This document shows, in pieces, positions 2,823 through 20,441 of a stretch of DNA of 37,300 bases. Location: assembly GCA_013911065.1 (NCBI GenBank), contig JACERV010000040.1, positions 1 to 37,300 of the forward strand, read 5' to 3'. Positions within the stretch are counted from its first letter, which is position 1; every line of letters begins with the position of its first letter. A program made the translations under genes and the position numbers. This stretch comes from Ruminococcus sp. (GTDB taxonomy: Bacteria; Bacillota; Clostridia; Lachnospirales; Lachnospiraceae). Below the pieces are notes generated by a model. The model had not been told where the DNA came from. It saw nothing but the letters and a program-made list of their open reading frames with translations, and made no database searches.

Positions 2823-2860
2823 ACGTCCTCCATTTAACAACCATTGTTTTCATCCTGTTT

Positions 2861-3538
2861 TTAGTCTTTTGTATCCGGACTGATAACAGAATCCGGGTGT
2901 TCTCCCTGTATTAATCTATTGACATTTTTCATCTGTTCCTTATTCAAGTATCTTGTATGACCAAGAATTTTAGAAACAATATTTGCCTTTGAAAACATCT
3001 CTAAGATTTCCATTTTATAAAACGCATCAAATACGTCTATGGTACTTATTGTCAGAGCACCGTGGTTTGCCAGTAAGATTGTTTCGCTTTCAGGATTTTC
3101 TTTTAAGACTCTTGTAACCTCTCTTGGTACTTCAATTGTAGTCGGTGTTGTATATTTTGTAACTGCAATCCCTTTTAATGCAAACATTACTTCCGGCAAA
3201 GGTACTTCATCAAAGGAAACCTCTGACATTGCATATCCCGTTGTTACCGGAGGATGTGCGTGAACTACCGCTTTAATCTCCGGTCTTTGTCTGTATACCG
3301 CCAAGTGCATTCTAATATCCCTTGCCGGTTTCTGACCCCAAAGTACAGTTCCTTCCATATCTACTTTCGTAATATTCTGTACCTGCATCTTACCCTTACA
3401 TATCCCGGAAGCTGTAATTAATACTTCATTTTTCCCAACACGAATACTGATATTTCCATCTGTACCTACAAGCAGCCCTTTCTCATACAGCTCTTTGCCT
3501 GCCTGTACCATGTCTCTTTTATATTGTTCCTGTGTCAT
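2861..3538 (-). CDS. Class II aldolase (L-fuculose-phosphate aldolase / ribulose-phosphate epimerase fold)
   Basis: 225 residues, typical of zinc-dependent class II aldolases of the FucA/AraD family. Visible motifs are GTDGNIS (25-31, normally GTSGNIS), the zinc ligands HAHPP (about 95-97), the catalytic Glu in LPEVMF (about 114) and ANHGA with the third His (about 157). The expected reaction is retro-aldol cleavage of a phosphorylated ketose to dihydroxyacetone phosphate plus an aldehyde, or C4 epimerisation. The ATG used has GGAGG six bases upstream; another ATG two codons earlier abuts that site and is unlikely. It is flanked by two FGGY kinases, consistent with cleavage of a kinase product. 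Aldolase versus epimerase cannot be decided here. Confidence 0.9.
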   Translation of the reverse strand: MTQEQYKRDMVQAGKELYEKGLLVGTDGNISIRVGKNEVLITASGICKGKMQVQNITKVDMEGTVLWGQKPARDIRMHLAVYRQRPEIKAVVHAHPPVTTGYAMSEVSFDEVPLPEVMFALKGIAVTKYTTPTTIEVPREVTRVLKENPESETILLANHGALTISTIDVFDAFYKMEILEMFSKANIVSKILGHTRYLNKEQMKNVNRLIQGEHPDSVISPDTKD

Positions 3539-3565
3539 CAACATCCTCCACCTCTTTTTATGATC

Positions 3566-5065: not shown

Positions 5066-5083
5066 ATGTCACCTCTTAACGAT

Positions 5084-6499
5084 TTACTGGAAATAAAAAT
5101 TTCTCGCTTCCTTCTCCTGCTCTCCATCATAAAAATCTGCACGTACTCCCGGAATATAGGTCAATGCTTCTAAGATTACCGGTAATACATCACCATGAAT
5201 ACCTACTGCATGATGAACATAAGGACCTTTTACAATCATAGTTTCTACTTTAGACCAGTTTGGAATTTCCACCCACGCATATGTTCCAATTGTCTTCGGT
5301 CCGTCAATAGTCTTTGCCTTACCCATTAACATGCCGTACGCTCCGTTATCCCCATCAAATCGAAGAATTGAGATTTCACCGGGTTTCAATTCTGCAACCA
5401 CTGACCCAGGACAATGTTCCGGGAATGCGAATGGCCTGTCTAATTTTGCCTTTTCTTTTGCCAGAGAAATCGGCCATGGGCCACAATGCTGTAATAACTC
5501 TCCATTTTCATTTTCCGGATGGCGTACAGACCAGTCTACGAAGAAGCTGGGAGTTTCCCCCATTCCTGCTGCCTGAACCATAATAGCCGTAATTGCTCCA
5601 TGAATATCAGTTTCACAGACTACCGGTATTCCTTCCTCCGTAAGTAAGGCATTGGCGCAGCAGGGCATCACATGAAGTGCCTGCTGCAATGCATCCCAGC
5701 ATTGGATTGCCACGGCATTACAATCATTTTCCTCTGCGAAATATTTCATGGCGACTTTTAATGCCGCTACTCTCCGAACTGATTCTTCCGGGATACACAC
5801 TTCCATATTAGCATGAATAAAATCAACGGTATCAGCTACATCCTGATTATCAGATGCTTCCAAATCTTTTACTCTATCTGCAAATTCAACCATTGTGATC
5901 GGGAATACCTGAACTCCAAATTTTTCTAACAGCTCACCTTCATTTACCATCATAGTCCAGAAATCTGCCGGTCTTGTATCAATCTGAAGAATTCTTGCTT
6001 TTCTGAATTCTTTGATTACATTTGCTGCAGCAACAAAGTTTTTCAGTCCTTTTTCAAAGCTTTCGTCCTCCACTCTGCAGTTTGGCATGTAAGTAAAAGG
6101 CACCTTCATTCTCCTCAATACTTTTCCTGTTGCAAAAAGTCCGCATTGTGTATCTCTCAGCCGGCTTCCGTCTGCCTCCGGTGCCTCATCCCGGGGCCCC
6201 CATAACAATACCGGCACATTTAATGCTCTCGCAACTTTTCCGCAGCTATGCTCGGAACCAAAGTTACAGTGAGGGATAAAAAGTGCATCTACTTTTGCAC
6301 CTTTGAATTTTTCAATTACTGCATCTACATCTTCCGCACAACGCAGCAAGCCTTCCTCATTGATGTCTTCAATATCAATAAATTCAATTTCCAGCCCCTG
6401 CATTTTTTCTGCAATTAGCTTTTTATACTTGAGAGCATCCTCTGCACTAAAAATTCTTCTTCTTGTCGGTGCATAACCAACTAACACTTTATTTTCCAT
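5084..6499 (-). CDS. L-fucose/L-arabinose isomerase family protein
   Basis: 471 residues, shorter than classical hexameric FucI (about 590) and close to the length of AraA-like and FucI-like short forms. The metal-binding residues expected for the fold are visible: Glu in VCETDIHGA (about 295), Asp in FFVDWS (about 322) and His in YVHHAVGIHGD (about 429). The likely reaction is manganese-dependent aldose-ketose isomerisation in the cytoplasm. It is first in the isomerase, kinase, aldolase part of the operon. AAAGGAAAACGTAT precedes the ATG. Some members of this family are annotated only by fold, so the substrate and even isomerase activity are inferred. Confidence 0.85.
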   Translation of the reverse strand: MENKVLVGYAPTRRRIFSAEDALKYKKLIAEKMQGLEIEFIDIEDINEEGLLRCAEDVDAVIEKFKGAKVDALFIPHCNFGSEHSCGKVARALNVPVLLWGPRDEAPEADGSRLRDTQCGLFATGKVLRRMKVPFTYMPNCRVEDESFEKGLKNFVAAANVIKEFRKARILQIDTRPADFWTMMVNEGELLEKFGVQVFPITMVEFADRVKDLEASDNQDVADTVDFIHANMEVCIPEESVRRVAALKVAMKYFAEENDCNAVAIQCWDALQQALHVMPCCANALLTEEGIPVVCETDIHGAITAIMVQAAGMGETPSFFVDWSVRHPENENGELLQHCGPWPISLAKEKAKLDRPFAFPEHCPGSVVAELKPGEISILRFDGDNGAYGMLMGKAKTIDGPKTIGTYAWVEIPNWSKVETMIVKGPYVHHAVGIHGDVLPVILEALTYIPGVRADFYDGEQEKEARNFYFQ

Positions 6500-6536
6500 A
6501 TACGTTTTCCTTTCCTGGCCTGGGCCAAATACATTT

Positions 6537-7832
6537 TTACCCTAATAACTGATCCTGCATACGTCTTAATTGAAGTAATACCGATGAATTATCAAGTTCC
6601 ACCATATCGTATGTAATCACCGTATCAACAGGCACATCCACTTTTAATACTGCTCCTTTTGCCAGTCCCACCGGCAGCATATTCCCATCTTTTGCTATAT
6701 GTGCATGTTCAATAGATGCCCGGTAACAATATTCTCCGATTGCATCTAATGTTTCTCCCGCCTTCAAATCCTTTTTGGCAACAGTAATACACTCTGAAGT
6801 CAGGCGGTCCATAGGATGGGCTGTTGACTCCCCATACAATACCGCCTGCGCTGCGGTAATGGGAGTCTCAATGGAGCAGAGATGGTATGGTCTGTACAGT
6901 AAATAATTAGGACCCTTTCCCATATCTCTTTGTACTAATCCGTCAATGATTCTTTTATTATCCGTAGTTACGATAACAAAAACTCCCGGGTTAATGTCAC
7001 CGATGCCATAGTCTACCACCCCTGTAGTTTCCAGGATCCCTCCTTGTTTCTTCAAAGAGAAAACCTTTGCCAGATCTTTCACATTACAGCTTGGGCCATG
7101 CATTCCCCTGACATCTACTTTTAGACCAGTTGCGTTTGAAACCGCACACATCTCTATCATAGTTTTTGATCCGTCCACGAATTCCACCAGCATGCGGGGA
7201 TTCATATCCCTTGCCGCTGCTTTTGTCATCCATTCCTCCTGTCCCGGATTTGCATACAAGTCCAGAGGATTGTTCTTCCCCTTTCCTGCTGCCACCACTT
7301 CAAATCCTAAGGCTTTGGCAAACCGATACACTTCTATAATGGACCCCGGCTCGTCGCCTGCCGTCAATGAATACACAATTCCTGCCTGCTCACACATTTT
7401 TCTTAAGATTGGTCCCACCGTAATATCACACTCTACATTCATCATAACAATGTGCTTTTTATAAAAAATACATTCTGTGGTAACTCTGGCCCCCATTTCA
7501 GGAGATCCGGTTGCATCGATTACACTTTGAATGGGTTTTGCTGCAACTGCCAGCTTGTAGTTTGTGGTTGCTACTCTTTTTCCTGCTGCAAGGGCAGCCT
7601 CTGCTTCCTCCAGCGAATCTGTTACAACAATGTCTTCTTTTGTATTCGCCTGCTTATATGCATCCACTGCAATATCCGTATTGATATCCACCACAATATC
7701 ACAAATCATTCCCTTCATTTCAGAGATTTGTGAGACAATGTCTTTGCCCATCTGGCCTGCACCAATAAGGGCCACATGGATTGGTTTTCCTTCCGCTTCA
7801 AGCTTTAATAATTTTGTATCAATTTCATACAT
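6537..7832 (-). CDS. NAD(P)-dependent oxidoreductase with C-terminal SAF-like domain
   Basis: 431 residues. An N-terminal Rossmann fold with GAGQMG (24-29) belongs to the homoserine-dehydrogenase-like NAD-binding group. The middle part (about 130-340) looks like the catalytic dimerisation region, and the last ~90 residues (KKDLKAGETLDAIGEY...LPVGLAKGAVLKVDVPVDTVITYDMV) have the SAF pattern also found in antifreeze-like and altronate-type proteins. The likely role is redox of a sugar, sugar acid or aldehyde intermediate. It lies between the zinc dehydrogenase and the isomerase-like gene, with 15- and 37-base gaps, so it is co-transcribed. Family members appear in many polyol and sugar-acid operons but few have a proven substrate; none is claimed here. 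Confidence 0.85.
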   Translation of the reverse strand: MYEIDTKLLKLEAEGKPIHVALIGAGQMGKDIVSQISEMKGMICDIVVDINTDIAVDAYKQANTKEDIVVTDSLEEAEAALAAGKRVATTNYKLAVAAKPIQSVIDATGSPEMGARVTTECIFYKKHIVMMNVECDITVGPILRKMCEQAGIVYSLTAGDEPGSIIEVYRFAKALGFEVVAAGKGKNNPLDLYANPGQEEWMTKAAARDMNPRMLVEFVDGSKTMIEMCAVSNATGLKVDVRGMHGPSCNVKDLAKVFSLKKQGGILETTGVVDYGIGDINPGVFVIVTTDNKRIIDGLVQRDMGKGPNYLLYRPYHLCSIETPITAAQAVLYGESTAHPMDRLTSECITVAKKDLKAGETLDAIGEYCYRASIEHAHIAKDGNMLPVGLAKGAVLKVDVPVDTVITYDMVELDNSSVLLQLRRMQDQLLG

Positions 7833-7847
7833 AATGTTTTTCTCCTT

Positions 7848-8900
7848 CTACATCCATGGATCAACTACAACCTTTATTGCCTGTCCGCTGGTTACCATTT
7901 CCATTCCATCTACAATGTTGTCCAGACTTACTTTTCCATTCACATACATTTCTGCATGAATATCCTTGTTATGAATAGCCTGAAGTGCATGATACAGCCC
8001 TGTACACGGATAGGAAAAAGCACCTAATATCATGATTTCATCATAATGTATCTTGTTGGAATCCAATGTTGTCATCGGATTTGATTTTGGGACCCCGCCA
8101 TAGATTATGATTCTTCCTCTTTTTCTGACTAACTCTAATGCCTGCTGCTGAGCCTCAGTGTTGGGTACCGCACAGATTACAATATCTGCTCCCGGACCTG
8201 CCAGTTCTTTTACTTTATCCGTAGCTTCTTTGGGATCCTTATTACTGAATATGTACTCAAATCCAAATTTCTGTGCCTGCTTCATTCTTCCTCTTGCAAG
8301 CATAATGACTTTTCTTGCCCCTCTTGCTTTTGCCACTTCCATATGAAGGCATCCTACAGGGCCATCTCCTATCACGATAACGGTATCACCATAGGAAACC
8401 TGATTATACTCCTGACAAGCCAGGACCCCTGATGACGGCTCTCCGAATGCGGCGTGGTCATAGCTCATGCCCTCCGGAATGTGTTCAATAAATCCCCGCT
8501 CCATAACTACTTCCGGTACGGCAATATACCCTGCAAATCCTCCCGGAAAGTGTGTCCCCAGCATACGGTGGTTTTCACATAAATTCACCTGTCCCCTTTT
8601 ACAGTAATAACATTCACCGCAGCTTACATCTGGTGCAAGAGCAACCCGGTCTCCCGCCTTAAACCGTCTGACATCCGGATGAACTTCCACTACCTCTCCG
8701 GCAATTTCATGTCCCATAATCTGATCTTTGATGCCATCCTTTAATCCATTATAATAATTCCTAATATCTCCTCCGCAAATTCCGCATGCATGTACTTTCA
8801 CCAACACCCCTTCGCTGGGACATTCAGGTATAGGACGTTCCTCAATCTCAATATGCTCTATGTCTTTGAATACCGCGGCTTTCATATATCCTTTTTTCAT
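7848..8900 (-). CDS. Zinc-dependent alcohol dehydrogenase, sorbitol-dehydrogenase-like
   Basis: 350 residues of the medium-chain dehydrogenase family. The catalytic zinc site is seen as Cys39 (ACGICGGD) with His64-Glu65 (MGHE), and the four-Cys structural zinc lobe is complete (Cys94, 97, 100, 108). The NAD-binding Rossmann fold has GDGPVGCLHME. It should interconvert a polyol hydroxyl and a ketone. The ATG overlaps the stop of the SIS gene in an ATGA arrangement, which implies coupling. A second ATG five codons in (MKAAVFKD, start at 8885) matches the family's usual N-terminus and has AAAGGA upstream, so it is a real alternative start. Third residue group and cofactor choice (NAD versus NADP) are not resolved. 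Confidence 0.9.
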   Translation of the reverse strand: MKKGYMKAAVFKDIEHIEIEERPIPECPSEGVLVKVHACGICGGDIRNYYNGLKDGIKDQIMGHEIAGEVVEVHPDVRRFKAGDRVALAPDVSCGECYYCKRGQVNLCENHRMLGTHFPGGFAGYIAVPEVVMERGFIEHIPEGMSYDHAAFGEPSSGVLACQEYNQVSYGDTVIVIGDGPVGCLHMEVAKARGARKVIMLARGRMKQAQKFGFEYIFSNKDPKEATDKVKELAGPGADIVICAVPNTEAQQQALELVRKRGRIIIYGGVPKSNPMTTLDSNKIHYDEIMILGAFSYPCTGLYHALQAIHNKDIHAEMYVNGKVSLDNIVDGMEMVTSGQAIKVVVDPWM

Positions 8901-9511
8901 TCCTCTTTCACCTTACCTAACAAACGGTCACCTACTGCGCCTTTGGGATGAATGATTGCAAACTGTTCTTTTGTGTAATTTGTATATTTCATCAGAGAAA
9001 TACAAATAGCGTCAAAAACTGAAATTACACCCAATGTACTTGCTGTGGCAAGCATATTAAACCGGCATGGTTCCTGATTGATTTTTACTTTAATGCAAAT
9101 GTCTGCCATTTTCCCAATCTCAGATTCTTCATTTTCTGTAATTGCAACCAATGCTGCCCCCTTTGCTTTACAGGCTGGAATCATATGTACTAGTTCTTCT
9201 GTCCCGCCGCCTTTACTAACTAAAATAAGAATATCCTCTTTCTGCAACACCCCCAGCCCTCCATGCACTGCATCCGATGGAGTTAAGAATACTGCAGGAC
9301 ATTCAATACAATTCAAGGAATGTACTCCTTTCCTGGCTGCCATTGCTGAAGTTCCGCATCCGGAGATAACAACCTTTCCGGTTCTGTCACCAATCAATGT
9401 GACTGCCTCTGCAACCTTTTCCTTGTCCACAGTGGTCAACAGCGATTCTATAGCTTTTGCCTCCATGGAAATAGTTCGTTCAATTTCCTGGATAATCTCT
9501 TTGTTTTTCAT
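8897..9511 (-). CDS. SIS-domain sugar-phosphate isomerase (KpsF/GutQ-like, no CBS domains)
   Basis: 204 residues forming one SIS domain. The phosphosugar-binding motif GCGTSA (51-56), the SKGGGTEELV segment and the C-terminal HPKGAVGDRLL block resemble arabinose-5-phosphate isomerases of the KdsD/GutQ type, but the CBS pair those carry is absent. The likely reaction is aldose-ketose isomerisation of a sugar phosphate. It is the first gene of the catabolic operon, with a strong site (GGGGAGGTGAAGAC) before the ATG. It stands next to, but beyond a terminator from, the response regulator. SIS domains also occur in regulators and deglycases, so isomerase activity is inferred. Confidence 0.85.
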   Translation of the reverse strand: MKNKEIIQEIERTISMEAKAIESLLTTVDKEKVAEAVTLIGDRTGKVVISGCGTSAMAARKGVHSLNCIECPAVFLTPSDAVHGGLGVLQKEDILILVSKGGGTEELVHMIPACKAKGAALVAITENEESEIGKMADICIKVKINQEPCRFNMLATASTLGVISVFDAICISLMKYTNYTKEQFAIIHPKGAVGDRLLGKVKEE

Positions 9512-9550: not shown

Positions 9551-9590
9551 ATGACGTGTGTAAAAATATTCTTCTCTTTACACACGTCAT
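9551..9590 (-). terminator. Terminator after the two-component system genes
   Basis: A perfect 14-bp inverted repeat (ATGACGTGTGTAAA / TTTACACACGTCAT) with a 12-base loop is followed on the minus strand by a run of Ts. It separates the response regulator from the SIS gene, so the eight-gene catabolic operon needs its own promoter or read-through. Confidence 0.85.
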
Positions 9591-9652
9591 ATTATCATAT
9601 TCATTTTTTATTAACTGTACATTTTTTTTATAATATTTTTGGATTTTTTTTA
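9591..9652 (-). promoter_or_regulatory. Candidate regulator-binding repeats and promoter of the catabolic operon
   Basis: Two TAAAAAAAAT direct repeats (minus-strand reading; plus positions 9621-9630 and 9643-9652) lie 22 bp apart, overlapping the stop of the response regulator gene. Below them are -10-like TATGAT/GATAAT sequences near 9591-9600 with no good -35, as expected for an activator-dependent promoter. The same kind of repeat pair, 23 bp apart, is found upstream of the ABC importer. The DNA here is very AT-rich, so chance similarity is possible. Confidence 0.4.
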
Positions 9653-11263
9653 GTCGGAAGTATTTTCTTTTCTGTACCGGGAAGGCGTCATATGCAAATG
9701 CTTCACAAATACTTCTCTAAAATATCTTGCATCATTGTAACCAATTGCTCCTGCTATCTCATTCACTGATAAACTGCTTGCCACTAATAGCTCCTGCGCT
9801 TTATTTAATCTTAATCCTGTAATATAATCAATAAATTTGATATTCTTTTCTTTTTTGAACAACTGGCTTAAATAACTTGTGTTAATAAAGAACTTCTTTG
9901 AGATTCCCCCAAGGCTTATATCTTTGCTGTAATTCTTTTCTATATATTCTATAATTTCTTCAATCAGGGGCTTTCCATAATTTTTTTTGCTCTTTGAAAA
10001 CAGCTGACTGACCTCAATCAACTTATTTTCAAGCCACCGCTCTAACAATTCTATGCTGCTATTGGCACCGATTGCTTCTTCAATTTCTTCAAACATGGCT
10101 AAAGCTATATCTGTATCTTTCTCATTTTCTTTCAGCAGTTTTAATACTATAAAATAAATATCCAGAGAAATAATTTTTATATTCGCATAATTATTCTTCA
10201 CTGCTTCTCTGAATATTTCCTGCAGGCATTTTTTAATTTCTGCTTCATTCTGAGTTTTAATAAAGCTTTCCAGAAGATCCTTTTTTAATCCTGTAATAAT
10301 TTGAATATCACTTTTCTTTATTTTAATTTCAGAGAAATGACATACGGAGCTTACACTTGGCAAATTACACTGCATTACACTCTGTACCGACTGTCTGTAA
10401 CTTTTACAGACATCTTCCACCGCCTCTACTTCATCCCCTATTCCAATATGTAAGTTTAAGCCATAAATATTATCCAGAATTGTAACTAATTTATTTGCTT
10501 TCTCAATCAAAAAATATCTTGCAATCGTTGTATCCGTATTTAGAATCAGGACAAATTGATTATCATATTTAAAGTGAGTAAAAGAACGGCCTTCACAATT
10601 AGTAAATACTTCGTCTATTACATTACAGACAGCATATTGAAGAATTTCCAGTCCGGACACATTCTTGAATTCAGGAATCTCTTTAATGTTGCCTGCAATA
10701 ATCGTTAGTACAACATATTTCTTTTGCTTAAAAACAATTCCCATTTCCTTCAGATCCGACAACAGCTCTGTTGTATCAATTTCTGCATCTGCACTTACCA
10801 GTTCTGTAAGATATCTGTTTTTCTTATAAGTTGTCCCTTCATAAGCCTTGGTCTTAATCCTGGACTCTATTGCCCGGTTTTCTTTATTTCTGTCTAAATC
10901 ATCCAACAATTCCTGTATCTGTTTTTTGAATTCTTCATTATCAATTGGTTTCAATAAATAATCGTTTACTCCAAGAGTAATTGCGGTGCGGGCATATTCA
11001 AAATTTTTAAATCCGCTTATTACAATGAACTTTAAGAACTGATTATATTCTTTTGCTTTTGCAATAAACTCTAAACCATCCATCATTGGCATTTTGATAT
11101 CTACCAGGACAATATCCACCTGATTATTTTGTATAAAATGTAATGCTTCAATTGCATTTTCCTGAGCCGGTGCTACTTCCAGTTCCGGAAAAAATCTGTT
11201 TATTTTTTTACAAATACCGTTTCTGATAATTTCCTCATCATCAATCACTAATACTCTATACAT
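9650..11263 (-). CDS. Response regulator with AraC-type DNA-binding domain (YesN-like)
   Basis: 537 residues. The receiver domain (1-120) has the acidic pair DDE (8-10), the phosphoacceptor Asp55 in VLVDIKMP and the Lys of DYLLKPID (about 105). A central region (about 150-400) has no recognisable enzyme motif and fits the variable linker of large YesN-type regulators. The C-terminal ~100 residues form an AraC/XylS double helix-turn-helix (EYIEKNYSKDISLGGISKKF, GYNDARYFREVFVKH). It probably activates the neighbouring ABC and catabolic operons when phosphorylated by the histidine kinase encoded immediately upstream (14-base gap). AAGGAGGAAGAAA precedes the ATG. Confidence 0.95.
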   Translation of the reverse strand: MYRVLVIDDEEIIRNGICKKINRFFPELEVAPAQENAIEALHFIQNNQVDIVLVDIKMPMMDGLEFIAKAKEYNQFLKFIVISGFKNFEYARTAITLGVNDYLLKPIDNEEFKKQIQELLDDLDRNKENRAIESRIKTKAYEGTTYKKNRYLTELVSADAEIDTTELLSDLKEMGIVFKQKKYVVLTIIAGNIKEIPEFKNVSGLEILQYAVCNVIDEVFTNCEGRSFTHFKYDNQFVLILNTDTTIARYFLIEKANKLVTILDNIYGLNLHIGIGDEVEAVEDVCKSYRQSVQSVMQCNLPSVSSVCHFSEIKIKKSDIQIITGLKKDLLESFIKTQNEAEIKKCLQEIFREAVKNNYANIKIISLDIYFIVLKLLKENEKDTDIALAMFEEIEEAIGANSSIELLERWLENKLIEVSQLFSKSKKNYGKPLIEEIIEYIEKNYSKDISLGGISKKFFINTSYLSQLFKKEKNIKFIDYITGLRLNKAQELLVASSLSVNEIAGAIGYNDARYFREVFVKHLHMTPSRYRKENTSD

Positions 11264-11277
11264 TTTCTTCCTCCTTC

Positions 11278-13092
11278 CTATATGGTTTTCACAGGCAGAT
11301 TCAGTTCCACAAGCGTTCCCACGCCCTCTTTACTGCTTATTTTAATTCCGTATTCTTCTCCAAAATATAATTTAATTCTTGCGTTGGTGTTCTCCAGCCC
11401 TATGCTGCTGTGGGTTCCCTCATAACTCACTTTGTGGACAATATCATTTCTGGAGTAATTTTCCAGCCTGTTATTTAATTGCTCCAAACGCTCTCCGGGA
11501 ATTCCATCGCCGTCATCCTCCACCTGTATAACAAGCTTTTCGTCCTTCTGATATGCCCTGACAACTACCTGGCATTTGCCAATGGAATTTTCAATTCCAT
11601 GAACCACCGCATTTTCAACTAATGGCTGTATGAGAAGTTTTACAATGAGCAGTTCACCGCATCCTGTCTCGACTTCATAAAATATATCTATCTTTTTACC
11701 AAATCTCAATTTCTGAATGATCATATAATTTTTTATATGGCTTATTTCCTCTTTCAGAGAAACATATTCCTGGCCTCTGTTAATGGAATATCTGTACATT
11801 TTAGATAATGCCTGACAGGCATCGCTGATACTGTCCGCACCTTCTGCTTCAGCCATCATATCAATGGTCTGCAGAGTGTTGTACAGGAAGTGGGGATTAA
11901 TCTGTGCCTGCAGAGCATTAAGCTCGGCTTCCTTTTGATAGATTTCAGACTGGTATACATTGTCAATCAGCTGCTTTGTTTTCTTAACCATTTTATCAAA
12001 GGAGCTTGCAAGCTGCCCTATTTCATCCTGTGTACCTGTATCAGCATCAATGTCAAAATCCCCTTTTCCTACCTGTCTCATCTTCTTTTGAAGCTGTGTA
12101 ATCGGTTCAGTCATTGACCTTTTAACAGTAAAAGCAAGATACAGTGATACAATAATACACAGTAAAGTGGTTGCTATAATTACAATTCTCAGGTTCCTTA
12201 TATCAGAAAGAAGAGCTGCTGCTTCCAGTTCATAAATTACGCTCCATTTTGTTATTTCCGATGTGCTAAAGGCTACAAATTTGTTTTCTTTTTCAGATTC
12301 CAGATATCCGCTTTTCCGCATTAGGGCATCACTGATATAATCACTTCGGAATTGTGTTCCTATATACCGGGAATCTGGGTGATAAACAATGGTTTTATTG
12401 TCGTCAACAATCACCACCTTCTGCCCCTTATTGTTATTCATATCCTGGAGCAGATTTCCCAATGTATTGCAGCTTAAATCTATAATAATGCAGCCTACTT
12501 CTTTTCTATTATTTTCATCATATATTTTTTTCACAATAGAAAATAGCTTTTTTTCGGCTCCTTCCTGAATTACAGCCGCCCTGTCATAAGTGGAGAGGAT
12601 CAAGGTATTGGTTCCACTGCGTTTCATAAATGCAAACCACTGGGTTCTGGTAAAGTCATATTCTGTTCTAAGGCTCAGATAATTTTTATCTGATGTGTAA
12701 ACCATTCCATTATAAGAGCATATGTATATGTTTTCTACTGCAAAAGAAGTAACAAATGCCATATCTATAAGGTTATTCATATACTGTTCATCCTCATAAT
12801 AAGAGGCTGTAGTTGTCTTTTTCTCCTGGGCTAATATTTCCTTTAACTTCCTGTCTGATGTTACCTGCATGGCAAGATTCATCGTATTGTTAATTTCATT
12901 ATCAATATTATCAATCATTTGCCGGGTGGTTTCCTGTGTGGACTTCATGACCTTATTTTTTAAAGAATAACTTCCCAGGTAGGCACTGAAAGCGCTCAAC
13001 ACCACTTCCGGTAAAATGATAACAATCAGGAAGATTACGATGAGTTTATTTCCAAACTTTAAATTCCGATACGCATTTTGTATTTTTCCCAT
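11278..13092 (-). CDS. Membrane sensor histidine kinase (YesM/LytS-type)
   Basis: 604 residues. Transmembrane helix 1 (about 16-40), an extracellular Cache-like sensing domain (about 41-300), transmembrane helix 2 (302-323), a HAMP domain (about 324-376), the His_kinase dimerisation block with the phosphoacceptor His401 (QINPHFLYNTLQ), and a C-terminal HATPase_c domain with the N-box QPLVENAVVHGIE and DDGDGIPGERL. It should sense a sugar or a liganded binding protein outside the cell and phosphorylate the downstream AraC-type regulator. It is divergent from two membrane-anchored binding-protein genes, the arrangement expected if these act as co-receptors. Confidence 0.95.
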   Translation of the reverse strand: MGKIQNAYRNLKFGNKLIVIFLIVIILPEVVLSAFSAYLGSYSLKNKVMKSTQETTRQMIDNIDNEINNTMNLAMQVTSDRKLKEILAQEKKTTTASYYEDEQYMNNLIDMAFVTSFAVENIYICSYNGMVYTSDKNYLSLRTEYDFTRTQWFAFMKRSGTNTLILSTYDRAAVIQEGAEKKLFSIVKKIYDENNRKEVGCIIIDLSCNTLGNLLQDMNNNKGQKVVIVDDNKTIVYHPDSRYIGTQFRSDYISDALMRKSGYLESEKENKFVAFSTSEITKWSVIYELEAAALLSDIRNLRIVIIATTLLCIIVSLYLAFTVKRSMTEPITQLQKKMRQVGKGDFDIDADTGTQDEIGQLASSFDKMVKKTKQLIDNVYQSEIYQKEAELNALQAQINPHFLYNTLQTIDMMAEAEGADSISDACQALSKMYRYSINRGQEYVSLKEEISHIKNYMIIQKLRFGKKIDIFYEVETGCGELLIVKLLIQPLVENAVVHGIENSIGKCQVVVRAYQKDEKLVIQVEDDGDGIPGERLEQLNNRLENYSRNDIVHKVSYEGTHSSIGLENTNARIKLYFGEEYGIKISSKEGVGTLVELNLPVKTI

Positions 13093-13197
13093 TACCGCTC
13101 ATCCTCATTTTTGATATTTCTTGCATATTATATGCCTTTATTATATTATTAAATGGTCAACATTACTATCTTTCTTTTGTTTTAAGAGAGGTCTTTT
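13093..13197. promoter_or_regulatory. Divergent promoter region between sensor kinase and anchored binding proteins
   Basis: A 105-bp AT-rich gap between divergent starts. It contains the 13-bp palindrome GCATATTATATGC (13123-13135), which includes a TATAAT on the minus strand and could be both the kinase -10 and an operator. Several TATATT/TATTAT sequences suit a plus-strand -10, but no -35 stands out. An A-tract repeat pair like those upstream of the importer is not evident here. Confidence 0.4.
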
Positions 13198-14445
13198 ATG
13201 CAAAATACTAAAAATTACCAGAAGCTTGGTGTATTAATTTTATCTCTTATCACCCTTCTTATGTTTATAAATATTGTATACACTGCATTGATATCTATTC
13301 AAAAGAAAAATATGCCGGTATCAGAGAGTAAGACAATATCCATTTTAACATGGAAGCCGATACCTACTATAATCATAGATGGATTTCATAAACAATACCC
13401 CGGCTATTACCTTAATATAGAGCGTTATCCCAAAACAAATTATATTTCTTTCTTAAATTCCAAACTACAGACGGATGCCTCTGTTGATCTGGTAGAAATA
13501 CCTGTGGAATTTTATAAAGACTATATAAACTCTGATTCCTTAACCCCTGTTACAAATATTTCCATGTTGTCCCGGTTTTGGAATGAACCTGTTGATTTTC
13601 TAAAATCAGTCTCAGGTACAAAAGAAATATATGGCATTCCCTATCAAAGCGATTTTCAGGAATTTTGGTATAATCAAGCCATTTTTGAGAAATATGATTT
13701 AGATCCGCCAAACAGTATTCCAAACTTTTATAAAGCATGTGAAGTATTATCCCAGGCCAATATCCCACCGCTGGCAATAGGTTTAAGTGATTGCCGCACA
13801 GCGCAGAACTTCTTATCTGCTTTGATTTCTGAACCAGTACTGAAGGGTATTACCGCGGATGAAAAAGCATCCATTACTAATGCGTATCAAATGCTCCATA
13901 AGAATTATATAAATGACACCCTTTTTTCTATGAGCAATGAGCAGGCCTTTGCTGCCTTTTTGGATTCTTCCTATGCCATGGCATTTACATCGGAGGATGT
14001 AACTTCACAATTATCTGATTCTATTATGCAGAAAATAGATATTCAGGTGACAGGAATTTATATTCAGAATGAAGACCAGACATATGTCATGGGCTCCCCT
14101 GTAGATTCTGTACTCTGTATCAGCAGCCACTCATCCAATCAGGATATGTGCAGGGAATTTCTGGATTACTATACGCAGTATGATACTGTCAAATCCTATA
14201 TTGACGAAACCAAGTCTACTACCAATATACAGGAATATACCATTAATCCCTCCATTTCAAAGGAATGGGAGAAAATGCGTCTGAGTATTCCATATCCAGG
14301 CTGGAATAATTACCATGTTTCCTCCTTTCATTCTGATAATGGAGAGGAAACTTTAGCTCAAAAATTATTGTGCAATATAGTAACACCTGATGAGTACATT
14401 CAACAAATTCAATCCGGAGGAGGCAAACATGAAACAATTAGATAA
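13198..14445 (+). CDS. Membrane-anchored extracellular solute-binding protein (maltose-binding-like fold)
   Basis: 415 residues. One hydrophobic helix (about 11-33) follows a short basic N-terminus; there is no lipobox Cys, so it looks like a signal anchor rather than a secreted or lipoprotein. The rest (about 45-400) resembles family 1 extracellular solute-binding proteins: an SILTWK start strand, NIERYP, GIPYQSDFQEFWYNQAIFEKYDL and a YAMAFTS segment. It has no transporter genes of its own type nearby. Its position, divergent from the sensor kinase and overlapping the next binding-protein gene by 17 bases, suggests a sensory accessory role. GAGGTCTTTT precedes the ATG. Direct ligand binding is not shown by the sequence. 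Confidence 0.8.
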   Translation: MQNTKNYQKLGVLILSLITLLMFINIVYTALISIQKKNMPVSESKTISILTWKPIPTIIIDGFHKQYPGYYLNIERYPKTNYISFLNSKLQTDASVDLVEIPVEFYKDYINSDSLTPVTNISMLSRFWNEPVDFLKSVSGTKEIYGIPYQSDFQEFWYNQAIFEKYDLDPPNSIPNFYKACEVLSQANIPPLAIGLSDCRTAQNFLSALISEPVLKGITADEKASITNAYQMLHKNYINDTLFSMSNEQAFAAFLDSSYAMAFTSEDVTSQLSDSIMQKIDIQVTGIYIQNEDQTYVMGSPVDSVLCISSHSSNQDMCREFLDYYTQYDTVKSYIDETKSTTNIQEYTINPSISKEWEKMRLSIPYPGWNNYHVSSFHSDNGEETLAQKLLCNIVTPDEYIQQIQSGGGKHETIR

Positions 14446-15439
14446 AAATAAAATGTTACTGTATTTGCTGATATTAAGTTTCATAGTTATTGTGTTCCAG
14501 TTCTATCTCCTGATTAAACCGGATATCAGTTCCGCTCAGACCAAAGGTTCTAAGGAAGAATATATCTGGGTTTCTACTATGACCGGGGACCCTATGTTTA
14601 CGGAAAATGATATTCCTGCATTCCGAAAATTCGGAGAAGAAAAAAATGTCACTACAACGATCATGGGTCCCAGAGAATATGATATCACCGGACAGATTGA
14701 GGCCCTGGAAGAAGCCATTGCCAGAAAGCCGGCAGGCATACTGGTCCTGGGAATGGAGCAAAGTCTTGCCCCCACTATTAATAAAGCCATTCAGAAAGGA
14801 ATTCCTGTAATCACTGTGGATTCGGATGTACAATCCTCTTCCCGAATCGCATTCGTAGGTTCCAACTGGTACGATATTGGGGTTGCACAGGCAGAATCCA
14901 TGGTAAAGCTAATTGGCGGGCAGGGTAAAATCGCTATAATGGGAATCGGAGGCGCTGATACGACAGAGGCCGCCTTCGCCGGTTACTACAGTGTTATTGA
15001 AAATTATCCTGACATTACGATCGTAGGAGAATACGATGATATGGCCAACTCAGATGAATCAGCCCGCATTACTGCCCAGGTACTGGAAACCTATCCCGAC
15101 ATTGCAGGTTTCTCAGGCTTTAACAGTAACAGTGCTTGTGGTATTGCCCAGGGGATACGGGATAATGCTCCGGAAAAAGATATCAAAGTCACTGCAATGG
15201 ATATTGAACCGGCTAATTTAAAATTAGTTGACAGCGAAGAAGTTGATGTTATTATCGGGCAAAAACGTTCTCTTTTCACTTATTACGGAGGTAATTTTCT
15301 TTATGACATCAATCATTCTTCACTGACAATCAAAGACCTGGCTGAAGATATTACAGACGTCATTCCCGAAAAAACATACACCGGGTTAATAAAGGTAGAC
15401 CGTTCCAATTTGCATACTTACTTTCCGGGTTTAAAATAA
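14429..15439 (+). CDS. Membrane-anchored ribose-type sugar-binding protein, probable co-receptor
   Basis: 336 residues. One transmembrane helix (about 9-27, LLYLLILSFIVIVFQFYLL), no lipobox, then a type 1 periplasmic binding-protein fold (about 43-325) with GILVLGMEQSLAPTINKAIQKGIPVITVDSD, the inter-lobe region around YDDMANSDESA and AVGSN-like FVGSNWYDIGVAQ. The start was chosen from GGAGGAGGCAAAC before the ATG; it lies inside the end of the preceding gene. It resembles the anchored xylose-binding XylFII of Clostridium beijerinckii, which works with the LytS kinase and YesN regulator, and the same gene types are adjacent here. A sensory role is inferred from this parallel and from the anchor. 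Confidence 0.82.
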   Translation: MKQLDKNKMLLYLLILSFIVIVFQFYLLIKPDISSAQTKGSKEEYIWVSTMTGDPMFTENDIPAFRKFGEEKNVTTTIMGPREYDITGQIEALEEAIARKPAGILVLGMEQSLAPTINKAIQKGIPVITVDSDVQSSSRIAFVGSNWYDIGVAQAESMVKLIGGQGKIAIMGIGGADTTEAAFAGYYSVIENYPDITIVGEYDDMANSDESARITAQVLETYPDIAGFSGFNSNSACGIAQGIRDNAPEKDIKVTAMDIEPANLKLVDSEEVDVIIGQKRSLFTYYGGNFLYDINHSSLTIKDLAEDITDVIPEKTYTGLIKVDRSNLHTYFPGLK

Positions 15440-15513: not shown

Positions 15514-16509
15514 TTATTGCAGCCCTTTATTTTCATTTCTAATGTTTCTTTTTTCTGCCTTTGCAATGTATTTACTTCTTATACTGTCAAGGAATACTGC
15601 CAGGAAGATAATTCCTGCAGATATTAATGGCTGTTTATATAAGTCAGTCTGCATGAATACAAGCCCGGCCTGAATCATCTGAATCATAACCGCCCCCAGC
15701 ACCACTCCCGGAAATACCTTACCCACACCCCCGGCAAGGCTTACTCCGCCCAGTACCGCGGCTGCAATTGCATTGAACTCTTCCCCTTTCCCGAATGCGG
15801 CATTGACAATCCCAATCTGTGCCACAGATATAATTCCTCCAATACCCGCAAACAGGGCTGACATTACATAGCATGTAAACAGAACCTTCTTCGTATGAAT
15901 TCCTGCTTTTCTTGCTTCCTCCACATCATTTCCTACGGCATAAATCTGTCTGCCAAGCTTTGTTTTTCCTAAAAACAAGACTCCAAATAAAATAATTATA
16001 GCGAAAATAATAATTGGCATCGGGATCCCCAAAACCGACTGTGAGCCCATTGAGGTTATAACCTTGGGCAGCTTTACCGATTCAGACTTCGTCATCAGCA
16101 GACCAACTGCTTTTACAAATACCATCATGCCCAGAGTCGTAATAAATGGTAATATATCCAATATGACAATGAGGAAGGCATTTATTACACCAACCAGCGT
16201 TGCTATCCCCAGGCCTATGATGATTGCTAAAACAGTAGGTACCTGTAATTTCTGAACCGACAACCCGGTAACAGCTGCCGACAAATACATCACAGAGCCT
16301 ATGGATAAGTCAATTCCTCCCGTTAATAATACAAACATAATACCAATTGCAATGATTCCGACATAAGAGGAGGATACCAGAATATTTTTAAAGGAATCCA
16401 CACTGATGAATTTAGGTGAAAAAATGCCGAATATTAAGAAGATTGCAATAAATAATATAATGGGGATATTTCTTAAAATAACCATTTTTATACTTTTATT
16501 CCCTATCAT
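15514..16509 (-). CDS. Ribose-type ABC transporter permease (RbsC family), last gene
   Basis: 331 residues, very hydrophobic with about eight to ten predicted membrane segments. The family signature TGGIDLSIGSVM is near residue 65 and the cytoplasmic loop GRQIYAVGNDVEEARKAGIHTKK interacts with the ATPase. It forms the membrane channel for sugar import together with the other permease of the operon. It starts directly after the ATPase stop (no gap), with GGGGGAAGATAA before the ATG. The two permeases are clearly different in sequence, so the channel is probably a heterodimer. The substrate is likely the same as that of the catabolic operon. Confidence 0.93.
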   Translation of the reverse strand: MIGNKSIKMVILRNIPIILFIAIFLIFGIFSPKFISVDSFKNILVSSSYVGIIAIGIMFVLLTGGIDLSIGSVMYLSAAVTGLSVQKLQVPTVLAIIIGLGIATLVGVINAFLIVILDILPFITTLGMMVFVKAVGLLMTKSESVKLPKVITSMGSQSVLGIPMPIIIFAIIILFGVLFLGKTKLGRQIYAVGNDVEEARKAGIHTKKVLFTCYVMSALFAGIGGIISVAQIGIVNAAFGKGEEFNAIAAAVLGGVSLAGGVGKVFPGVVLGAVMIQMIQAGLVFMQTDLYKQPLISAGIIFLAVFLDSIRSKYIAKAEKRNIRNENKGLQ

Positions 16510-18045
16510 TTATCTTCCCCCCTTTTCTGTCTTATCTTCAACTGTCTGGTTAAATGCCGCTTTCAGAATATTTTCTTTGTCGAACTCTTCTCTTGCAAGC
16601 TCTCCATGAATTTCTCCGTTTCCCATAACCAATATTTTGTCACAAATCCCCATTAGTTCTTCAAGTTCAGAGGATATCACCCATACAGCTTTCTTATCTG
16701 TTGCCAGTTGATTAATGATATTGTATACTTCATATTTTGCGCCTACGTCAATTCCTCTTGTGGGCTCATCCACAATAAAAACTTCCGGATCAGTGAGCAG
16801 CCACTTTCCGATAACCACCTTCTGCTGATTTCCTCCGCTCATGCTTTTTGCCGGATTATTCTCAATAGGCGGGCATTTCACCTTTAATTTATTTACAATG
16901 TCCTCTGCTTTATTTTTAACACATTCATCATTGACGATCTTAAGTTTCCCTTTTGCACTGGAGGGTACAGAAACCAATGATAAATTATCTAAAATAGAAA
17001 ACTCCATCAATAATCCTTCTTCCCGCCGGTTTTCTGTTACAAATGCTATTTTATGTTCAATCGCTTTCTGGGGGTTATGTTTTTCTACCTTTTCCCCGTT
17101 AATGATTATTTCCCCGGCTTCATAGGGGTCTAATCCATATATAATCCTTGCCAGTTCGCTTCGTCCTGATCCCATTAATCCAAACATTCCCACGACTTCG
17201 CCCTTATGTATGTCCATATTGATATTATGTACAATCCCGCTCTGAGACAGACCTTTTACACTTAATGCAGTCTCTTTTGACGGTTTATTCGTCTTAGTCG
17301 GATATAATTGGCTGATTTCCCTGCCAATCATGGATTGAATCATTCTGTCAATTGTGTAATTTTCTTTTTTATCCTCATCCGTGATACAGCCGTCACGTAA
17401 AACAATAATTTGATCTGACAGTCTTTCTACATCTGCTAAAATATGAGAGATATAAATAATGGATTTTCCTTCTTCCCTTAACTTGTCAATAATCCCAAAC
17501 AATTTCTCTGTCTCCTTATTGGTCAAAGAAGTCGTTGGTTCATCAAAAATCAAAATCTGGGGATCAGAGGACAGTGCCTTTGCAATCTCCACCAGCTGGC
17601 GTTCCCCGGGTGATAATTTTTCAACAATCGTATCCGGCGAAACGTGCAGGTCCACTGCTTCCAAGGCCTTCTTCACCCTTCTGCTCATTTCAGTTTTTTT
17701 GATAAGGGGCAGAACCCCTATCCTGGGAAATGAATCAATAAACACATTGTCATTGATGCTAAGATTGGTAAACAAATTCAACTCCTGATGTATAAATGCA
17801 ATTCCAGCCTTTTTTGCATCAGATGGCTGGGTGGGCCTGTATAGTTCTCCGTTTATATAGAGTTCACCGCTGTCTGCCGGTAAAATTCCTCCTACAATAT
17901 TCATCATAGTGGACTTTCCGGCACCATTTTCTCCAATTAAACTCAGCAATTCACCTTTTTTTAACCCCCACGTGACATCTTTTAATGCCGGAATTCCGAA
18001 AAAGCTTTTCGCTATGTGCCGTAATTCTAATACATATTCACTCAT
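16510..18045 (-). CDS. Sugar ABC transporter ATP-binding protein (RbsA/XylG type, two domains)
   Basis: 511 residues with two fused nucleotide-binding domains. Domain 1 has the Walker A GENGAGKST (38-46), the signature LSPGERQLVEIAKAL, Walker B LIFDEPT and the switch His in YISHIL. Domain 2 has the degenerate Walker A GLMGSGRSELAR typical of this family, the signature SGGNQQKV and Walker B FIVDEPTRG. It energises sugar uptake at the membrane. I chose the ATG preceded by AGGTGTTTAAT; an ATG six codons upstream has no ribosome binding site and overlaps the previous gene. It sits between the two permease genes. Confidence 0.95.
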   Translation of the reverse strand: MSEYVLELRHIAKSFFGIPALKDVTWGLKKGELLSLIGENGAGKSTMMNIVGGILPADSGELYINGELYRPTQPSDAKKAGIAFIHQELNLFTNLSINDNVFIDSFPRIGVLPLIKKTEMSRRVKKALEAVDLHVSPDTIVEKLSPGERQLVEIAKALSSDPQILIFDEPTTSLTNKETEKLFGIIDKLREEGKSIIYISHILADVERLSDQIIVLRDGCITDEDKKENYTIDRMIQSMIGREISQLYPTKTNKPSKETALSVKGLSQSGIVHNINMDIHKGEVVGMFGLMGSGRSELARIIYGLDPYEAGEIIINGEKVEKHNPQKAIEHKIAFVTENRREEGLLMEFSILDNLSLVSVPSSAKGKLKIVNDECVKNKAEDIVNKLKVKCPPIENNPAKSMSGGNQQKVVIGKWLLTDPEVFIVDEPTRGIDVGAKYEVYNIINQLATDKKAVWVISSELEELMGICDKILVMGNGEIHGELAREEFDKENILKAAFNQTVEDKTEKGGR

Positions 18046-18046
18046 A

Positions 18047-19144
18047 TTAAACACCTGCCCCATTCACAATCGACATTCTAGTCATTAATTTTGTTCTGAT
18101 TACATCAAGGAATGCTGCCGCTAAAATGACAAGCCCTTTCACAATATTAATTGTGAAGTATGACAAATTAAACAGATTTAATGTATTAAACAGCAGCGTA
18201 AAGAAAAATACACCAAACAGAGTCCACATTACCTTTCCTTTTCCTCCGGATAAGCTTGTTCCTCCAATAATGGCAGCGCCAACAATATCCATCATGATAT
18301 CTTCACCTAATGTAGGCCTTCCCATCCCCAGCCTTGCAGAATAAATTGCCGAACCTGCTGCCGCGCAAAACCCGCTCATTGCATAACAAAATAAAGTTAC
18401 TTTTTTCGTAGGAACCCCGGAAACAACACTTGCAACTTCATTTTCCCCGCTTGCATATATCCATTTTCCAAGTACCATTTTTGCCAGAATAAAATGCGCC
18501 CCCAGTGCTATTAAAACCACAAAAATAGCCGCATAGGGTATGAATCCCAAAGATTTTGTCCCAAATGCTGAAAAGCTTTCCGGTAATCCCATGATATTTC
18601 TTGACTGTGTAAGGTAGATTGCAAAGGACAGCAAAAACATCTGTGTTACTAATGTAACCATGAATGGAGGCATTTTGAATCTTGCAACAAAGAATCCATT
18701 AAACAATCCAATCAGCGTCCCTATTATTAGCATCACAAATATACTGACAGGCACTGATGCCGCACTGCCCGCAAGGGGGCCTCCATTTTCATGAATCAGC
18801 CATCCCCAAAGCGGCGTTCCTTCAAAAATTGCAGGGTCAAAGGAATTGCTCATTAAAGCTGTGCCTATTACACTGGTTACTCCTATGATTGACACCTGAG
18901 ATAAATCAATTCCACCAAGGAGCAGTACAAAAGTCTGCCCAATTGCAATAACCAGCAACGGCCATAGATTTGATAATAAATTTAATAAATTGCTTTGCGA
19001 AATAATTCTAGGTGCAAAGGGAATCACACAGACAAAGTAAATCAGACTCATAATCAATATAAAATATTCAGATAAGAATATCCGCTGTATAACCTGCTTT
19101 GCCGGCTTTTTTTGTCTATATGTTTCAGATTTTAATGCACTCAT
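18047..19144 (-). CDS. Ribose-type ABC transporter permease (RbsC family), first gene
   Basis: 365 residues with about ten hydrophobic segments and the LGGIDLSQVS variant of the family's GIDLSxGS motif. The permease loop GKWIYASGENEVASVVSGVPTKKV is present. It has an extra extracellular loop (about 110-145, rich in Gly and Trp, EGTPLWGWLIHENGG) compared with the other permease. The start at MSALKSET was chosen because GGAGGT lies six bases upstream; longer readings run into this site. It is separated from the binding-protein gene by about 120 bases containing a weak hairpin, often seen where the binding protein is made in excess. One base separates its stop from the ATPase start. Confidence 0.93.
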   Translation of the reverse strand: MSALKSETYRQKKPAKQVIQRIFLSEYFILIMSLIYFVCVIPFAPRIISQSNLLNLLSNLWPLLVIAIGQTFVLLLGGIDLSQVSIIGVTSVIGTALMSNSFDPAIFEGTPLWGWLIHENGGPLAGSAASVPVSIFVMLIIGTLIGLFNGFFVARFKMPPFMVTLVTQMFLLSFAIYLTQSRNIMGLPESFSAFGTKSLGFIPYAAIFVVLIALGAHFILAKMVLGKWIYASGENEVASVVSGVPTKKVTLFCYAMSGFCAAAGSAIYSARLGMGRPTLGEDIMMDIVGAAIIGGTSLSGGKGKVMWTLFGVFFFTLLFNTLNLFNLSYFTINIVKGLVILAAAFLDVIRTKLMTRMSIVNGAGV

Positions 19145-19263
19145 AACATAACCTCCATTAATGCTGAGAGCCACCGCAAAACAGAACATTTATACTGAAT
19201 ATTGCTTTAAGCATATATACAATATCAGATGAGAAAAGTCTATTTTACGGCAGCTCCTGGCTT

Positions 19264-20307
19264 TTATTGTTCTCTTAAAATATTTCCCCACATGTCCATT
19301 CTTTTTTCTTTAAGATTGCCTTGTGTAAGCGCAAACCCTGGATCTTCACGAATTTCATCCGGCTGTGTTTCGCCTGCTTCAATTGCATCTAAGATCCCGC
19401 TGATTGCCAGATCAGCCTCATTATATACATCCTGAACTCCCGTTCCTTCAATGATACCTTCATCAATTAATTCTCCGGCAGTTGCGTCTCCGTCAAGGCC
19501 TCCCATGATTACATGTCCTTCTTCACCAACTTTTACCCATTTTCCCAATGGTTCAAGTACAGATTGAATTGTCGGGAACAGGAAGTCAGACGATGTAAAT
19601 AAGAAATCAACATCTGGATTTGCCTGTACCGCACTTTGCAGATTTGCAAGCGCTGTTGCCGCATCCCATTCGGTGGGAACTTCAATTACTTTATTAAAAA
19701 GCTCCGGTTTCTTTTCGATTGCAGCATAAAATCCTTCTTTACGTGCAATGGCATTGGGATCTCCAAGATCTCCCACCATAATAAGCGGAGTCAGCTTTTC
19801 GCCTGTTTTATCAAATTTCTTTTCTGCTTCCTCAACCATATAATCCACACACGCTTCGGCAACTGTCGCATTATCACAGACTACGGTAATATTTGCACCT
19901 TCATCACTTGTTGGCGGCCGGTTAAAGATAACAATCGGGATATCCGCATTATTTGCTTCCTTTGTGACTGCAACTGCTGTATCACCATCTTTGGGAATAA
20001 CAATAATTCCATCTACATTCTGTGTAATGACATCTTTTACCTGCTCCAACTGTTTGTTGGCATCGCCCTGACAGTTTGTCTCAATTACCTTGATGCCCTG
20101 TTCTTCTAAAGTATCCACAATCGCCTTATGTGCGGCAACCCAGAATTCAGTTTCCAGGTCTTCTGTACAAAGTGCTATTGTCTTACTTCCACCCTCACTA
20201 CTGCTGGTACTTGTACTGGTGCCTTCTTCACCTTTTTTATCAGCACATCCGACAAACATAGTCGCCAGCATTACAAGTGCCAATAAAAGACTTACTCGTT
20301 TTTTCAT
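19264..20307 (-). CDS. Sugar-binding lipoprotein of the ABC importer (ribose-binding-like)
   Basis: 347 residues. A lipoprotein signal peptide MKKRVSLLLALVMLATMFVGC with lipid-attachment Cys21 is followed by a Ser/Thr/Gly-rich linker (about 25-45) and a type 1 periplasmic binding-protein fold beginning KTIALCTEDLETEFW. Motifs include DGIIVIPKDGDTAV, IPIVIFNRPPT and an inter-lobe MGGLDGDATA. It delivers sugar to the two permeases encoded downstream. The start was set by GGAGGT ten bases upstream of MKKR; earlier ATGs overlap this site. Unlike the two anchored binding proteins convergent with this operon, it has a proper lipobox. Confidence 0.93.
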   Translation of the reverse strand: MKKRVSLLLALVMLATMFVGCADKKGEEGTSTSTSSSEGGSKTIALCTEDLETEFWVAAHKAIVDTLEEQGIKVIETNCQGDANKQLEQVKDVITQNVDGIIVIPKDGDTAVAVTKEANNADIPIVIFNRPPTSDEGANITVVCDNATVAEACVDYMVEEAEKKFDKTGEKLTPLIMVGDLGDPNAIARKEGFYAAIEKKPELFNKVIEVPTEWDAATALANLQSAVQANPDVDFLFTSSDFLFPTIQSVLEPLGKWVKVGEEGHVIMGGLDGDATAGELIDEGIIEGTGVQDVYNEADLAISGILDAIEAGETQPDEIREDPGFALTQGNLKEKRMDMWGNILREQ

Positions 20308-20349
20308 AATTTCTTTTACCTCCATTTTTATTATGATTTTTATAGGTTG

Positions 20350-20417
20350 AGTATAATAAATTAGAGGAGTTTTCAAAAGGCAAATTTTTTTAGAAGGAGA
20401 ATGGGGATTTTTTTAGA
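20350..20417 (-). promoter_or_regulatory. Activator-type promoter of the ABC importer operon
   Basis: On the minus strand, TTGAAA (20371-20376) and TATACT (20350-20355) form a sigma-A-like promoter with a short 15-base spacer. Immediately upstream, the 11-base direct repeat TCTAAAAAAAT occurs twice (20384-20394 and 20407-20417), 23 bp apart and ending seven bases before the -35. This is the layout of AraC-family activator sites, and the YesN-type regulator of this cluster is the obvious candidate. Binding is inferred. Confidence 0.5.
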
Positions 20418-20441
20418 GATGTTTATGCAGCTTCCTAATTG

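Follow-up and report, generated by a model that had tools for sequence, protein, structure and literature searches.

A candidate four-component sugar sensor with a YesM-type kinase and two anchor-bearing binding proteins of unlike fold in a Lachnospiraceae sugar cluster

The window, by which we mean the whole stretch of 37,300 nucleotides analysed here, is part of a 4.3-Mb genome whose nearest named relative is Faecalicatena contorta. It carries genes for a sensor kinase, a response regulator and two solute-binding proteins (SBPm and SBPr, the latter 99% identical to its counterpart in F. contorta), together with importer and catabolic genes:

166-9511, minus strand: catabolic genes, for a SIS isomerase, a Zn alcohol dehydrogenase, a DRL oxidoreductase, an isomerase-like protein, FGGY kinases, a class II aldolase and an M24 protein (Pfam, NCBIfam)
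9650-11263, minus strand: YesN-type response regulator (Pfam Response_reg and HTH_18; receiver and AraC-type HTH)
11278-13092, minus strand: YesM-type sensor kinase (Pfam dCache_1, HAMP, His_kinase and HATPase_c)
13198-14445, plus strand: SBPm, anchored family-1 (maltose-type) binding protein (Pfam SBP_bac_8, SBP_bac_1)
14429-15439, plus strand: SBPr, anchored CUT2 (ribose-type) binding protein (Pfam Peripla_BP_4)
15514-20376, minus strand: CUT2 importer, consisting of permease, ATPase, permease and a lipoprotein SBP at 19264-20376 (Pfam BPD_transp_2, ABC_tran, Peripla_BP_4)

The kinase and regulator genes diverge from the SBPm/SBPr pair, the importer genes converge with it, and the row of catabolic genes lies downstream of the regulator gene. 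The longest open reading frame of SBPr is 14390-15439 (plus strand). Its true start is likely the ATG at 14429, which is preceded by GGAGG, and the SBPm and SBPr genes would therefore overlap by 17 bp. Open reading frames and Pfam assignments agree in this with a preliminary description of the locus, which had placed a kinase and a regulator divergent from two overlapping binding-protein genes, one ribose-like and one of the maltose type; the regulator gene lies just outside the positions it covered (11278-15439). Chance open reading frames were ruled out, as all four genes have domains and syntenic homologues. The catabolic enzymes suggest as substrate a sugar or polyol handled by a dehydrogenase, an isomerase, an FGGY kinase and a class II aldolase, and the importer and catabolic genes are the probable targets of the sensor.

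The dCache ectodomain of the kinase spans residues 44-287. The structural model of the kinase, built on an alignment of only 9 sequences, has a pLDDT of 73.4, and its structural matches are dCache ectodomains and the kinase domain of GanS. That of SBPm, built on only 8 sequences and of moderate confidence (pLDDT 72.6), has a single helix (2-38) at its start, and its structural matches are binding proteins of family 1; the SBPm of the four relatives tested belong to SBP_bac_1 in Pfam. The best solved relative of SBPr is 6sw4, an arabinose binding protein that we take to be AraP of the Geobacillus AraPST system, and 5xsj, presumably XylFII of Clostridium beijerinckii, is also among the best. The comparison with XylFII made in the preliminary description is thus apt for SBPr, although 6sw4 is closer. 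SBPr thus groups with the proteins that serve as sensors in three-component YesM/YesN systems.

Both binding proteins begin with an uncharged run (residues 10-35 in SBPm, 9-29 in SBPr) and have no cysteine in their first 45 residues, whereas the importer SBP of the window has the lipobox FVGC. Inspection of the N-termini therefore bears out that each has one hydrophobic helix and no lipobox, and that a true transport lipoprotein is encoded separately in the convergent importer, as previously proposed. An uncharged N-terminal run of 18-29 residues is found in 9 SBPm and 9 SBPr rows, and the lipobox pattern is absent from 17 of these 18, the exception being the SBPr of L076, with LTGC inside the hydrophobic run. 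The importer SBP has a lipobox in all seven genomes compared (the window's row is 15 residues short at the C-terminus and was used for the N-terminus only). Relatives do not retain the SSA-Q stretch that follows the helix in the SBPr of the window (signal-peptide cleavage was judged by eye). These results support anchor-like N-termini for SBPm and SBPr. Among the weaker SBPm matches, all 25 fetched from the order (L093-L117) have a lipobox-like cysteine, judged by eye, and 26 of 29 from the family and the window's own genome (L021-L049) have the lipobox pattern; the exceptions include L023, which reads LQGC, and L032, whose start is unsure. In a tree of SBPm with its transport relatives there are two label changes, and a single origin is found in 22% of 200 bootstrap trees. 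The third of the above exceptions, in a family genome (L036:16-2409), is a family-1 binding protein whose N-terminus resembles a signal peptide but lacks a cysteine; its gene adjoins that of a regulator.

We then considered how the two proteins are distributed across genomes, placing the thresholds for close homologues at score gaps after the scores had been seen. In the family sample, SBPm and SBPr have close homologues in the same 5 of 299 genomes, with no discordant genome. With SBPm as single-sequence query the fifth genome (G133) scores 80 bits and the next match, a lipoprotein, 62 bits; with SBPr the five carriers score at least 527 bits, and the two further matches (262 and 227 bits) are importer lipoproteins. 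In the order sample both occur in the same 5 of 392 genomes, where SBPm reaches at least 326 bits (next match 161 bits, a lipoprotein) and SBPr at least 478 bits (next four matches 240-241 bits, lipoproteins). In the genus sample both are present in 3 of 4 genomes and neither in the fourth. The three samples overlap and the carrier genomes are related, so that this co-occurrence does not amount to many independent events. The SBPr search of the class sample (391 genomes) found sensor-type SBPr only in the window itself; the other four matches (218-365 bits) are lipobox-bearing proteins encoded alongside importer genes. One of these (L159) is the direct neighbour of a YesM/YesN pair and could be a sensing protein in its own right, and the same applies to a family match (L160).

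In total, 11 distinct genomes have both binding proteins. Kinase and regulator were seen in 10 of them, and in the eleventh (G364) the regulator gene is cut by the end of the contig. A scan of species genomes for two peptide patterns taken from an alignment of SBPr, which retrieves pattern holders only and missed one carrier (G334), gave 15 loci. At those with at least 42% identity SBPm adjoins SBPr in seven out of seven cases, and kinase and regulator lie in the same locus in six; in the seventh (L077) the end of the contig cuts SBPm, and the kinase, the regulator and the rest of SBPm are on L071 of the same genome. Of the eight weaker loci three were examined: L080 is a three-component set without an adjoining SBPm, and L081 and L082 are importers.

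The carriers show three gene orders. The divergent arrangement of the window (order A) is found in seven genomes (window, L073, L074, L069, L075, L076 and G163, where the set is split over two contigs). In L078 and L079 the genes run kinase, regulator, SBPr, SBPm (order B); the L078 contig ends about 1.2 kb past SBPm, so the missing importer there means little. In G334, and in G364 as far as the contig reaches, the series is kinase, regulator, SBPr, importer, M24, SBPm and catabolic genes (order C). In both orders that keep them adjacent, the SBP genes overlap or almost touch. A chance neighbourhood is ruled out by the co-occurrence of the binding proteins and the three gene orders. The conserved linkage for which the preliminary description had proposed a search is thus present, and the retention of the four genes through rearrangements is our main argument that they form one unit. 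Within this unit SBPm is the least conserved part between clades. Identity between the window and L069/L075/L076 is 37-39% for SBPm, 64-66% for SBPr, 53-54% for the kinase and 52-53% for the regulator; within the kinase it is 43-44% in the ectodomain and 67-68% in the cytoplasmic part. Rapid change in both the ectodomain and SBPm would fit a shared contact surface, and equally a relaxed role.

Upstream of the importer lies a direct repeat that may be the site of the regulator, with a weaker copy before the catabolic operon:

20381-20420, minus strand: direct repeat CTAAAAAAATY-N12-CTAAAAA with a 23-bp period, candidate regulator site upstream of the importer
9618-9657, minus strand: weaker copy before the catabolic operon, second-best matrix hit (14.5 bits, resampled maximum 11.0)

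The repeat was spotted by eye and only then tested, so that its single match in the window, against a mean of 0.01 in 100 shuffles, is a test after the fact. It has matches in 10 of 161 loci, nine from this cluster and one outside it (L128). It precedes the importer in all seven order-A genomes, and one half is kept in L119 (order C). For weaker copies we used a matrix built from five sites and compared each score with the highest in five resampled sequences (scores below are given as hit; maximum). The copy before the catabolic operon exceeds this maximum, as second-best hit, in three of the five genomes compared, namely the window, L074 (14.3; 12.2) and, barely, L069 (10.7; 10.6), and falls below it in L075 (8.3; 11.2) and L076 (third hit, 6.9; 10.6). 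No matrix hit exceeds the resampled maximum in L078, while the best hit lies immediately before the kinase gene in L079 (12.8; 11.8) and at the start of a permease gene in L119 (18.7; 14.0). No copy lies between the kinase and SBPm among the top four matrix hits. No transcription factor besides the regulator was recognised in the cluster of the window, so the repeat probably belongs to the regulator.

Two further elements were noticed by eye. Between the regulator and the catabolic genes, positions 9552-9589 hold a perfect inverted repeat of 13 bp with T residues after it, also seen in L073 and L074. It may terminate the sensor transcript or form a hairpin in the leader of the catabolic one. 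A palindrome with arms AAAGAGACG/CGTCTCTTT lies upstream of the importer SBP gene in L069, L075 and L076, and in imperfect form in L070; it overlaps the second repeat half and the -35 region, and is absent from the window's clade.

The genome has 18 YesM-type kinases. A Peripla_BP_4 protein lies directly beside that of the window and three others (L121, L131 and L137), and none of the other 17 was found with an anchored family-1 protein nearby. The search for their neighbours relied on similarity to proteins of the window and on a family-1 profile, so that unlike ones may have been missed. Beside these 17 kinases there are 15 SBP hits, 14 with a lipobox; the remaining one (L125) is cut at the locus edge, with its N-terminus outside. 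Some of these loci have layouts of their own. In L131:2397-8963 a kinase gene and a regulator are flanked by two Peripla_BP_4 proteins, one anchored (7842-8963) and one a lipoprotein (3708-4763), and a third binding protein goes with the importer. In L127:3862-8453 a gene for a family-1 lipoprotein directly follows a kinase/regulator pair, possibly a three-component sensor like CuaDSR. Four short YesM-type kinases of 333-367 residues (L123:5099-7521, L126:4789-7252, L129:6471-9069 and L133:5072-7535) adjoin a regulator gene, a divergent gene for a CUT2-like ABC ATPase and a CUT2 importer (Pfam for L123 only). These ATPases are 21-23% identical to that of the window, and it is possible that such kinases are coupled to an ATPase-like protein.

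The conserved co-occurrence of the binding proteins and the repeat speak for a single sensory unit serving this sugar cluster. We regard it as fairly likely, on sequence and by analogy, that SBPr, SBPm, the YesM-type kinase and the YesN-type regulator form a four-component sensor, and the four genes probably switch on jointly the uptake and breakdown of one sugar. SBPr and SBPm would be tethered outside the membrane by their N-terminal helices, with the kinase's dCache ectodomain as their target. Binding of the sugar, most likely by SBPr, would alter the kinase through the HAMP domain, the kinase would phosphorylate the regulator, and the latter would bind the 23-bp direct repeat and turn on both targets, the importer genes and the catabolic operon. 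We infer here the contact between binding proteins and kinase, ligand binding, phosphotransfer, the role of the repeat as regulator site, and activation rather than repression. Two published accounts offer analogies. In Ruminiclostridium cellulolyticum the sensing protein CuaD binds the kinase CuaS and sharpens sensing (PMC10384115). In LevQRST of Streptococcus mutans, a kinase and a regulator work with two sensing proteins, both of them membrane-associated binding proteins from the ABC family. Induction is abolished when levQ is deleted and lowered when levT is lost, LevQ being required for the function of the complex and LevT for its selectivity (PMC3043104). By analogy, SBPr would report the imported sugar and SBPm would be an obligatory partner comparable with LevQ and LevT, acting as a structural adaptor or as a second receptor that sets specificity. 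More tentatively, one kinase dimer might simultaneously read two unlike tethered receptors, of CUT2 and family-1 type, for different ligands such as a monosaccharide and an oligosaccharide source, with the combination, and not a single sugar, switching importer and catabolism.

Against the four-component reading stand the SBPr of L076, with LTGC inside its helix, the low conservation of SBPm, the relatedness of the carrier genomes, and the copy of the repeat before the catabolic operon, which exceeds the resampled maximum in only three of five genomes. Moreover, adjacent genes for a binding protein and a kinase need not imply an interaction (PMC11113362). A rather unlikely alternative is a three-component sensor of SBPr, kinase and regulator, with SBPm co-expressed outside the complex, for instance as an anchored scavenger for a related oligosaccharide. 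SBPr alone resembles the sensing proteins of such systems, L080 has an anchored SBPr relative (28%), a kinase and a regulator with no adjoining SBPm, and SBPm changes fastest, its low conservation relative to SBPr also fitting a relaxed role. Yet no sampled genome with a close SBPr lacks a close SBPm, which remains in the cluster across the three gene orders. It is improbable that the anchored proteins serve transport, through the CUT2 importer or, for SBPm, through a family-1 importer encoded elsewhere, with proximity to the kinase reflecting co-regulation only. Both do come from transport families and the importer is adjacent, but it has its own lipoprotein in all seven genomes compared and permeases of the CUT2 type (BPD_transp_2), which family-1 binding proteins are not known to serve.

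We give about as little weight to direct sensing by the kinase, in which neither anchored protein would touch it. The kinase has a complete dCache fold, a domain that often binds ligands directly, which would allow this, and for the Pseudomonas aeruginosa kinases AgtS and AruS no binding by the SBPs encoded nearby is reported (PMC11113362). The co-occurrence of the four genes in three orders argues against it, as does the CuaS ectodomain, which had no affinity for the sugars tested (PMC10384115).

Binding proteins as receptors of kinases have mostly been studied singly. A conserved set in which one kinase is served by two receptors that differ in fold, and which is compact enough for reconstruction in a laboratory strain, would allow tests of how two sugar signals are combined by one kinase and of whether binding proteins can serve as adaptors. 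The analysis also offers a testable candidate regulator site, and it names a candidate sensor for a sugar cluster of gut Lachnospiraceae that had been uncharacterised.

In searches of an open-access collection of papers, LevQRST is the only system that we recognised with one kinase and two binding proteins, and we found no description of a YesM/YesN set with two SBP folds. The window set resembles LevQRST in encoding two anchored binding proteins with one kinase and one regulator, and departs from it in several respects. LevS is predicted to have up to five membrane helices, with little of the protein outside the cell (PMC3043104), whereas the kinase of the window has a dCache ectodomain. LevS is listed as HPK7 and LevR as NarL class (PMC3353171), compared with a PF06580 kinase and a regulator with an AraC-type HTH. 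The SBP genes of LevQRST flank those of kinase and regulator, and here they form a divergent pair. Finally, LevQRST controls a PTS with no ABC transporter nearby, while the window set lies beside a CUT2 importer.

With SBP-dependent YesM/YesN sensors the window set shares the PF06580 kinase, the AraC-type response regulator and, if SBPr senses as we infer, a dedicated sensing protein besides the importer lipoprotein. It differs in having two anchored binding proteins, of different Pfam families, instead of a single sensing one. AraPST and XylFII/LytS/YesN likewise place a ribose-type binding protein beside a YesM-class kinase, an AraC-type regulator and a separate transport protein; the accounts available give them one sensing protein and no anchored family-1 partner. 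CuaDSR has a dedicated sensing protein, a two-helix HAMP kinase, a YesN/AraC regulator and a separate transport protein; its one sensing protein is a predicted lipoprotein and the CuaS ectodomain has no predicted domain (PMC10384115). The four-part layout is thus already known from LevQRST, and YesM/YesN sensors with one binding protein from AraPST, XylFII/LytS/YesN and CuaDSR. The preliminary description suggested that pairing two different binding-protein folds with one kinase would be a further variant. Pairing two binding proteins has a precedent in LevQRST, a published four-component system (PMC3043104), and the suggestion holds in a narrower form: as far as these searches of open-access papers show, what is new is the YesM/YesN version with two binding-protein folds.
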